Positions 10,749 through 12,142 of a stretch of DNA of 64,000 nt are shown here, piece after piece. The notes beneath the pieces are model-generated. The model saw only the letters and a list, made by a program, of their open reading frames with translations, had not been told where the DNA came from and made no database searches. The DNA comes from Curtobacterium sp. 9128 (GTDB taxonomy: Bacteria > Actinomycetota > Actinomycetes > Actinomycetales > Microbacteriaceae). The DNA lies in the NCBI RefSeq assembly GCF_900086645.1, contig NZ_LT576451.1, forward strand, positions 558,001 to 622,000. Reading direction: 5' to 3'. A program made the position numbers and the translations under genes. Every line of letters starts with the position of its first letter. Position 1 is the stretch's first letter.

Positions 10749-11603
10749 TTGACCGACCAGGCGTACAACCCGGCCAACTACTGCTACCGGCACCCGGACC
10801 GGCAGAGCTTCGTCCTGTGCCAACGGTGCGGGCGGACGATCTGCCCCGAGTGCCAGACGCCGGCGGCGGTCGGGGTGCACTGCCCTGAGTGCGTGCGTGA
10901 ACAGCGCGCGCAGTTCACGGCGAACCGCCGCGCGTCCGGAGCCCCGAGCAGGGTCACGGTCGCGCGGCGGCGCTTCGCCATGCTCGACCAGAAGGCGACC
11001 GTCGTCATCGTCGCCGTCTCCGTGGTCATCTGGCTGCTGGACCAGGTGTCCAACCGGGCGCTGACCCAGCTGCTCGGCTACAACGCCTACTACCTGCCGA
11101 CGCAGCCGTGGCGGATGGTCACGTCGTTGTTCGTCCACTCGGGCTTCTTCCACATCGCGTTCAACATGTGGGCGGTGTGGATCTTCGGCAGGATGCTCGA
11201 GAACATGCTCGGGACCTGGCGGTTCCTGGCGTTGTACTTCATCTCGGGCCTGGCTGGATCCATGGCGGTCACGCTGCTCGCTCCCCAGACGTCGGTCGTC
11301 GGCGCCTCCGGAGCGATCTTCGGCCTGTTCGCCGCCTTCTTCATGATCCAGCGCAGCCTCGGTGGCAACGCCGTCTCGTTGCTCGTGATCATCGGCCTGA
11401 ACCTGCTGATCGGGTTCCTGCCCGGGACGAACATCTCGTGGCAGGCGCACATCGGCGGGATCGCTGCGGGCTTCCTGACCGGGTACATCTTCGCGAAGAC
11501 CCGGAACGTCCGGAAGCGCGGCTTGCAGATCACCCTGCTCGGCGCCGAGGCGGTGCTGATAGTCGTCCTGGCGTACGTCGGGTACGCGATCGCGTTCAAC
11601 TGA
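10749..11603 (+). CDS. Rhomboid family intramembrane serine protease with N-terminal zinc finger
   Basis: The 284-residue protein starts with a Cys/His-rich module (CYRHPDRQSFVLCQRCGRTI, then CPEC twice; residues ~13-50) resembling a B-box-type zinc finger, followed by six or seven membrane segments. The protease motifs are GASGAIFGL with the catalytic serine (Ser187) and the histidine in AHIGGIAAG (His234), plus the HxxxN-type segment HIAFNMWAVW. The start is a TTG at 10749, two bases after the ppi stop; it is the only start that keeps the zinc finger whole. Coupling with a cyclophilin gene is usual in Micrococcales. Substrates are unknown. Confidence 0.9.
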   Translation: MTDQAYNPANYCYRHPDRQSFVLCQRCGRTICPECQTPAAVGVHCPECVREQRAQFTANRRASGAPSRVTVARRRFAMLDQKATVVIVAVSVVIWLLDQVSNRALTQLLGYNAYYLPTQPWRMVTSLFVHSGFFHIAFNMWAVWIFGRMLENMLGTWRFLALYFISGLAGSMAVTLLAPQTSVVGASGAIFGLFAAFFMIQRSLGGNAVSLLVIIGLNLLIGFLPGTNISWQAHIGGIAAGFLTGYIFAKTRNVRKRGLQITLLGAEAVLIVVLAYVGYAIAFN

Positions 11604-11629
11604 AGCGCATCGACCGCACGAGCATCCAA

Positions 11630-11663
11630 CGCCCCGTCACTCTTCGGAGTGGCGGGGCGTTTT
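11630..11663 (+). terminator. Rho-independent terminator after the rhomboid gene
   Basis: The stem is CGCCCCGTCACTC (11630-11642) with GAGTGGCGGGGCG (11647-11659), containing one G-T pair. The loop is TTCG, and TTTT follows at 11660-11663. Confidence 0.85.
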
Positions 11664-11669
11664 CGTACC

Positions 11670-11827
11670 TGTGGACAACTCGGTGAGTTACACGGGTGTG
11701 ATTATCCCCACTGTGGATTCACCTGTGGATAACTCCGGGACGGGGGTGTGGAACAGCGTGTGGAGAACTCGTCGAACTGTGGAGAACGGGGGAAAACCGC
11801 GCTGCTCCCACAGCGGCCTGTGGAAAA
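11670..11827. promoter_or_regulatory. Cluster of DnaA-box-like sites
   Basis: Within 160 bp, seven sites resemble the 9-mer TT(A/G)TCCACA. Two match perfectly in the minus orientation: TGTGGACAA (11670-11678, the actinobacterial form) and TGTGGATAA (11724-11732, the E. coli form). Single-mismatch sites are TTATCCCCA (11702-11710, plus), TGTGGAGAA (11759-11767 and 11778-11786) and TGTGGAAAA (11819-11827). A weaker site is TGTGGAACA (11747-11755). Nearly all face the same way. The segment lies between two convergent terminators, about 11 kb from dnaN, and contains no gene. It could be part of the origin, a DnaA-titrating site or another DnaA-controlled element. Confidence 0.7.
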
Positions 11828-11830
11828 CGA

Positions 11831-11866
11831 GAACGCCCGCCGCACCGATCGGTGCAGCGGGCGTTC
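11831..11866 (-). terminator. Terminator of crgA
   Basis: GAACGCCCGCCGCACC (11831-11846) pairs with GGTGCAGCGGGCGTTC (11851-11866) around GATC, with one mismatch. On the minus strand the hairpin is followed by TTCTCGTTTTCC, a T-rich run. It lies 22 bases beyond the crgA stop. Confidence 0.8.
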
Positions 11867-11887
11867 GACGACGCGGAAGCCGGGATG

Positions 11888-12142
11888 TCAGCGCCAGCGA
11901 GTGGTCATGAGGAAGCCGATGAACATGATGCCGAAGCCGATGAGGATGTTCCACGAGTTCAGCGAGGGAACCGGGAGGGTGCCCTGCGAGACGTAGAACA
12001 CGATCACCCAGGCGAGTCCGACGAGCATGAAGCCGAACATGACCGGCTTGAACCACACGGGGTTGGGCTGGTCGCCCGCCGTGTCGACCGAGTCGGCTCG
12101 GGTCCTCCGGGCGGGCTTGGTGCGGTCCTTGTCCTTGGCCAT
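11888..12142 (-). CDS. crgA: Cell division protein CrgA
   Basis: CrgA is a small actinobacterial divisome protein that helps coordinate Z-ring activity and recruits septal peptidoglycan enzymes. The 84-residue product has a basic, soluble N-terminus (MAKDKDRTKPARR), the family's NPVWFKPVMFG entry motif, and two membrane segments (about residues 32-50 and 61-80) ending in TTRWR, the typical C-terminus. The ATG at 12142 was chosen because MAKDKDR begins the conserved protein and TAGGAT (12150-12155) is a -10 box seven bases upstream, predicting a leaderless mRNA. It faces the division kinase operon, as in mycobacteria. Confidence 0.93.
   Translation of the reverse strand: MAKDKDRTKPARRTRADSVDTAGDQPNPVWFKPVMFGFMLVGLAWVIVFYVSQGTLPVPSLNSWNILIGFGIMFIGFLMTTRWR

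Follow-up and report, generated by a model that had tools for sequence, protein, structure and literature searches.

In mycobacteria, the binding of DnaA has been mapped in vitro for Mycobacterium tuberculosis and in vivo for M. smegmatis, and the five top regions are the replication origin oriC, Rv0010c-Rv0011c, a region upstream of dnaB, Rv3843c-RVnc0040 and rpmH-dnaA (Hicks et al., 2020, PMC7738170; here and for the other publications cited, our statements refer to portions of the published text). The second of these lies beside crgA, as Rv0011c is CrgA (PMC6656915). It carries recurrent mutations in a small palindrome, with longer cells and altered isoniazid susceptibility, and in those portions its authors report no obvious correspondence of the site in other species (PMC7738170). 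Here we describe a cluster of DnaA boxes between a rhomboid gene and crgA of Curtobacterium sp. 9128, found in a 64-kb window (the whole stretch of DNA analyzed, corresponding to 558001-622000 of the 3,943,501-bp, single-contig genome), and we compare its conserved core with the mycobacterial site. Positions below are those of the window, unless they are marked as chromosomal.

Two regulatory systems of Escherichia coli provide the other points of comparison. The core of a DnaA-reactivating sequence (DARS) has one DnaA box opposite to two others, along with a region for accessory factors, whereas the essential boxes of datA all point in one direction (PMC5742627). We interpret the Curtobacterium locus as a conserved, origin-proximal, non-coding element that is predicted to be bound by DnaA and to adjust active DnaA rather than to start replication, a reading to which we assign a probability of about 0.62.

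The 158 bp of the cluster, which is non-coding in the window, hold all five of the window's TTNTCCACA sites. A preliminary description of this DNA had listed two perfect and four single-mismatch DnaA sites within 160 bp, nearly all facing one way, and each was recovered on its strand and at its position. The two perfect boxes, TTGTCCACA (11670-11678) and TTATCCACA (11724-11732), both on the minus strand, are the sole perfect sites within the window. The one-mismatch sites are TTATCCCCA at 11702 on the plus strand and, on the minus strand, TTCTCCACA at 11759-11767 and again at 11778-11786, and TTTTCCACA at 11819-11827. Of the six, all but TTATCCCCA are thus on the minus strand, and five match TTNTCCACA. 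The alignments presented below add to these six a degenerate box (11712, minus strand) and a palindrome (11687-11702). The distance of about 11 kb from dnaN given in that description agrees with the end of dnaN at 718; dnaA is 12.9 kb from the site.

Across the whole genome, there are 20 occurrences of TTRTCCACA and 56 of TTNTCCACA, compared with 14 and 18 when the patterns are read backwards. Fourteen of the 56 TTNTCCACA sites fall in a single 46-kb stretch, where they form four groups (chromosomal positions): three sites upstream of dnaB (523.8-523.9 kb; dnaB recognized by PF03796 and PF00772), four in the rnpA-rpmH-dnaA region (554.6-555.5 kb; rnpA and rpmH read by eye), two between dnaA and dnaN (557.2-557.4 kb) and five between rhomboid and crgA (569.67-569.83 kb), the last being the densest of the genome. 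Under a simple Poisson model in which the other 42 sites set the rate, the genome would be expected to contain about 4e-10 intervals of 158 bp with equal density, and the chromosome-wide scan proposed in the preliminary description revealed no multitude of comparably dense sites. As side observations on these groups, the cluster upstream of dnaB (chromosomal 523787-523947) lies 33 kb from dnaA and has perfect boxes 55 bp apart, and another genome (G265) has a box pair 57 bp apart at 29 kb from dnaA. A Streptomyces-like genome (G299, C1:4164556-4273517) has a TTRTCCACA group at crgA and others whose distances from dnaA are 34, 77 and 88 kb. These are possibly the clusters of a 2006 study of Streptomyces coelicolor, which reportedly described three of them, H69, H24 and D78.

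Alignment of 80 named loci anchored on gyrA and 30 loci of the family Microbacteriaceae anchored on crgA, in which nearly all rhomboid-crgA gaps contain a DnaA box, uncovered a core of about 50 bp with a set order of parts. Box 1, TTATCCACA, is followed in the same direction by the degenerate box 2, whose end is mostly CCACA or AACA and which has short spacers on either side; then come the inverted box 3, TTATCCCCA on the opposite strand, and, immediately adjoining it, a palindrome of 16 bp with the consensus ATTACACnnGTGTAAT. The end of box 1 and the start of box 3 are separated by 12-14 bp in all the copies whose distance our script could measure, 43 of the 44 aligned. In the window, the core occupies 11684-11734 on the minus strand, with box 1 at 11724-11732, box 2 as GAATCCACA at 11712-11720, box 3 at 11702-11710 on the plus strand, where it is one of the one-mismatch sites listed above, and the palindrome as ATCACACCCGTGTAAC at 11687-11702. 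It scores 60 bits (E 7.2e-16 in its whole own genome) with R1, a sequence-only profile trained on 44 copies, this one included, and the 25-mer TGGGGATAATTACACSSGTGTAATT matches the genome at up to three mismatches only at the core (control, 0). The remaining boxes of the cluster are accessory: TTGTCCACA stands beyond the palindrome, and both copies of TTCTCCACA as well as TTTTCCACA precede box 1. A TTNTCCACA site 54 bp from box 1 on the palindrome side recurs in L027, in L028 and in six of the Curtobacterium loci L051-L058 (eight in all), and most of those Curtobacterium loci have further boxes before box 1. The Curtobacterium copy is a flipped version of the element with extra boxes.

The element is widely kept (fractions on placement refer to genomes or rows among the matches listed). 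Among 48 named Micrococcales loci with both genes, 47 have an R1 match between rhomboid and crgA, with no hits in the reversed sequence; 27 of these loci contributed to the training of R1, and 20 of the other 21 match. Within the family, R1 matches 115 of 120 genomes, so the check across the Microbacteriaceae called for in the preliminary description upheld the conservation of the site. The best family matches listed are at most 500 bp 3' of crgA in 97 of 111 cases, at 0.7-2.5 kb in nine and elsewhere in five, and for family genomes outside the training set the first of these placements accounts for 81 of 95. At the level of the class, R1 finds a match at E 0.05 in 149 of 197 genomes. Where both crgA and R1 are among the matches listed (92 genomes), a match falls no more than 2 kb 3' of the gene in 78, and in 77 of these no more than 300 bp. 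Model-free counts point the same way: TTNTCCACA occurs in 95 of 119 distinct crgA 3' flanks, each at most 400 bp long (one when reversed; eight of 118 on the 5' side), and the palindrome pattern TNACANNNNTGTNA in 77 of 119 (none when reversed, none on the 5' side). In the phylum sample, R1 matches 63 of 119 genomes at E 0.01; nine of the matching genomes come from the class or from closer groups, and many matches are partial. In 18 loci outside the class, picked mainly from the better matches, crgA is directly 3' beside the element in eight (L210, L212, L214, L220, L222, L224, L226 and L227), one has its match in dnaA-dnaN (L225), and in the remaining nine no crgA was recognized among the frames scanned. 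We regard the element as a real, conserved DnaA-box element with hardly any reservation. That the cluster arose by chance, or from the base composition of an intergenic region rich in GC, has next to nothing in its favor: the reversed-sequence controls, which gave zero to one, refute a chance origin, and both the Poisson expectation and the conservation across families argue against it. As a separate observation, Arthrobacter and its relatives (L100, L109, L116, L118, L119, L122, L123, L126, L127 and L128) have R1 matches beyond gyrA, in most cases several, spread over a stretch of up to about 3 kb, and a palindrome-like site lies upstream of dnaA in several of these loci.

How, then, does this element relate to the crgA-adjacent DnaA site of mycobacteria? 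The comparison was made through Mycobacterium-like genomes (this label, like Streptomyces-like and Arthrobacter-like, is assigned by us to genomes known here by G handles) and not on the M. tuberculosis sequence itself. Four loci of the Mycobacterium-like family f7 (L135, L136, L150 and L154) have the layout 3' of crgA, the palindrome of L150 and L154 being ATCACACGCGTGTGAT, and the CrgA of L135 is a close match to the CrgA of PDB 2mmu. Both sites adjoin crgA near oriC and combine DnaA-like boxes with an adjacent small palindrome. They also belong to the same set of DnaA loci (oriC, rpmH-dnaA and upstream of dnaB), such that four of the five mycobacterial DnaA regions correspond to the four box groups of Curtobacterium sp. 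9128. In Curtobacterium, however, the neighbor on the other side is the rhomboid gene. From these likenesses in sequence and setting, the two appear to be one element. A literature search, with most subscription journals outside its coverage, gave no paper among those listed that, to judge by title, abstract or passages, deals with the element outside mycobacteria. New in this analysis are how broadly the element is conserved, its independence from crgA and the view of the palindrome as a module that is likely separate.

The case for a separate module comes from the palindrome itself. In 22 palindrome sequences from the class, the column equivalent to the fixed C6 of the DnaA box is T, C or G; as the pattern used to choose these sequences holds eight other columns fixed, the variable columns alone are informative. 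For this reason, the palindrome is likely to be a site for another protein rather than a set of DnaA boxes, and we predict that it is likely bound by a dimeric partner protein. In its strict form, the palindrome occurs once per genome in two of the five genomes searched and is absent from the other three, including Curtobacterium sp. 9128, whose copy departs from the strict pattern. Two other candidates for the site were considered and rejected. A transcription-factor site of the regulon type is at odds with the single copy of the strict palindrome in those two of five genomes and with the single match of the 25-mer. For a structured RNA element or terminator, the fold of the element and the covariation of its pairs were no better than in shuffles, the observed covariation across the palindrome being reached by 103 to 413 of 500 shuffles in the five measures, and a search of 11500-12000 against Rfam returned six matches at E up to 1, all under the gathering score of their own family.

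The neighborhood of the element varies while the element persists. In two genomes of 1.4-1.5 Mb (G163 and G292, family f29), some 40 kb separate crgA from the element, a distance that for G163 assumes a circular contig, and the element is at the 3' end of the rhomboid gene; in G163, the palindrome (L187:10711-10729) forms the last codons and stop of that gene, and an Fe-S oxidoreductase takes the place of crgA. Two others (G144, L193:12459-12509; G181, L194:2104-2152) have the element flanked by gyrB and by a response regulator of the OmpR/PhoB type, where it precedes two divergent genes, and in L148 a thiolase replaces the rhomboid neighbor. Relative to crgA, 102 of 106 copies are on the opposite strand and four on the same strand, namely those of the Curtobacterium genomes G000, G105 and G031 and that of G106, so polarity with respect to crgA is not fixed. 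As the neighbors change while the element stays, we rejected the candidate that it is a fixed part of crgA or of crgA regulation.

These observations also bear on the idea of a DnaA-dependent road-block that ends or tunes the rhomboid and crgA transcripts. The usual place of the element between convergent genes, in some cases in a gap too short to hold a terminator as well, and its location in front of two divergent genes in G144 and G181 would suit such a role. We nevertheless consider it improbable, given that the element stays when thiolase, Fe-S oxidoreductase, or gyrB and a response regulator become its neighbors, that there is no RNA fold beyond shuffles, and that the expression of Rv0010c and Rv0011c was unchanged in M. 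tuberculosis dnaA mutants (PMC7738170). Moreover, in the window both genes have their own hairpins. The rhomboid-family membrane protease gene (10749-11603, plus strand; PF01694, E 2.8e-37) is followed by a terminator-like hairpin at 11628-11663 on the plus strand, whose inner stem (11642-11657) was computed and whose outer stem was read from the sequence. The gene for the cell division protein CrgA (11888-12142, minus strand; PF06781, E 1.3e-29) is followed by another, obtained by a hairpin search, at 11831-11866 on the minus strand. The gap from stop codon to stop codon measures 284 bp, which bears out the preliminary description of a gene-free interval flanked by terminators.

That description had also raised the possibility that the site belongs to a bipartite origin, as its second half, or is itself the true origin; this is not supported, and we rate it as very unlikely. 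In its favor, the site has the densest box cluster of the genome, and the cumulative GC skew of the 262-kb stretch surveyed (chromosomal 400001-662000, in 4-kb steps) reaches its minimum where the 568-572 kb block ends; the crgA site is in this block and dnaA-dnaN in the 556-560 kb one. The skew is, however, weak everywhere sampled; the plot proposed earlier thus located a minimum but one too weak to decide the matter, and the skew neither supports nor excludes an origin here. Against an origin, the dnaA-dnaN interval is intact with its own boxes 12 kb away, and the entire rhomboid-crgA gap is only 55-66 bp in several relatives. The distance from dnaA also varies: of the 53 class genomes in which it was measured, 45 have their best R1 match 9-71 kb away. 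No AT-rich stretch stands out clearly, the lowest GC content over 40 bp being 0.475 at the site and 0.425 in dnaA-dnaN against a window mean of 0.699, and in mycobacteria oriC and the crgA-adjacent site are separate DnaA peaks (PMC7738170). With oriC the element shares DnaA boxes and weak partial profile matches, which could be taken in favor of an origin: R1 gives 17.9 bits in the dnaA-dnaN interval of Curtobacterium sp. 9128 and partial matches upstream of dnaA in Arthrobacter-like loci. These near-noise matches suggest that the origin may contain related parts. The element differs from oriC in its position, which is not between dnaA and dnaN, in its size and in the apparent absence of a marked AT-rich stretch. 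As an aside on the region of dnaN, a gene of the 6-phosphogluconate dehydrogenase family (PF03446, PF00393) occupies 789-1676, between dnaN and recF.

The remaining proposal of the preliminary description, a DnaA-titration or DARS/datA-like element, fits a site that is conserved, origin-proximal and non-coding and that is apparently the same as one bound by DnaA in two mycobacteria (PMC7738170). That the element regulates DnaA in some way we judge to be rather probable. As for the way, DARS-like reactivation fits somewhat better than a datA-like action. Like DARS1 and DARS2 of E. coli, the element is non-coding and has a three-box core with one box opposite and near-fixed spacing (12-14 bp from box 1 to box 3, with box 2 degenerate), and this arrangement of two boxes one way and one the opposite way favors the DARS-like option. 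DARS2 has accessory-protein sites beside its core, where here there is the palindrome. In E. coli stretches taken at the presumed positions of DARS1 and DARS2, no core could be picked out with confidence for a comparison of spacing and head-to-head geometry. The option is further favored by the mycobacterial site mutants, which are long-celled like the dnaA mutants and thus share the trait of a weakened dnaA (PMC7738170).

The opposing possibility is a datA-like sink, in which, shortly after replication of the site, the element and its same-direction extra boxes would titrate DnaA or promote the hydrolysis of DnaA-bound ATP, and so damp re-initiation. The element shares with datA, and with the box clusters of S. 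coelicolor and Bacillus subtilis, the nature of a non-coding, origin-proximal DnaA-box cluster outside oriC. The distances from dnaA given above suit a sink as well, because the copy number of an origin-proximal site rises soon after initiation, as has been argued for datA (PMC5742627). Most of the extra Curtobacterium boxes point the same way, as do the essential boxes of datA, and the Streptomyces-like G299 has four TTRTCCACA sites at crgA. In the conserved core, by contrast, box 3 is inverted, so the boxes do not all share one direction, and an inverted box with a palindrome is unlike the described minimum of datA. No more than one or two TTNTCCACA sites are left in most Microbacteriaceae gaps, few for titration, and the long cells of the mycobacterial site and dnaA mutants, like those of strains with weakened dnaA, also argue against a sink (PMC7738170). 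In short, the extra Curtobacterium boxes resemble datA and the conserved core resembles DARS, and we hold a sink to be unlikely, if a serious contender.

DARS-like reactivation is itself a tentative proposal, less likely than not. In the general mechanism that we envisage, DnaA would bind the box trio, a partner protein would bind the palindrome, and the complex of the two would change the nucleotide state or the availability of DnaA. Three of its elements we infer: the identity of the site with that of mycobacteria, a second protein reading the palindrome and a complex that alters the state or availability of DnaA. At its most specific, the element would be an ancient actinobacterial switch of the DARS type, about 50 bp in size and origin-proximal, on which a dedicated palindrome-binding protein specific to this locus, in the role that IHF and Fis have elsewhere, resets DnaA on the inverted box trio to its active form, with the cryptic mycobacterial site under selection in clinical strains being the same switch. 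We offer this version as a speculative and, taken as a whole, doubtful one.

Several observations weigh against regulation of DnaA by a two-part element as proposed here. DnaA binding at the crgA-adjacent site has been published for mycobacteria only; dnaA mutants of M. tuberculosis initiated replication at an unchanged rate; and the discussion of the same report treats dnaA and site mutants jointly as having longer cells at an unchanged initiation rate (PMC7738170). The palindrome of the mycobacterial site was read by its authors as two DnaA-like boxes (PMC7738170), whereas we read it as a likely separate module, and its left arm in the window is within two mismatches of TTATNCACA; a separate partner is thus not certain. 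HigA2 of M. tuberculosis binds the site in vitro only at micromolar levels (PMC11205783). Conservation too has its gaps. There is no R1 match at E 0.05 in 48 of the 197 class genomes and no nearby match at crgA in 14 of 92 among the matches listed. Of the 119 crgA 3' flanks, 24 lack TTNTCCACA and 42 lack the palindrome pattern, in some because crgA is far from the element (L061, L063 and L071), and in the 42 flanks of the class sample TTNTCCACA is present in 31 and the palindrome pattern in 23, a low share. Streptomyces-like loci (L157, L158, L176 and L178) keep the boxes and not the palindrome, and Arthrobacter-like loci have several copies of the element.

The control of DnaA in actinobacteria is poorly known, and M. 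tuberculosis is stated to lack both hda and datA (PMC2607554). The element described here is a concrete and testable candidate for a part of that control. It provides an evolutionary setting for a mycobacterial site at which mutations change both the length of cells and their susceptibility to isoniazid, and the palindrome of the element, single-copy in both genomes with the strict form, may lead to an as yet undiscovered partner of DnaA.
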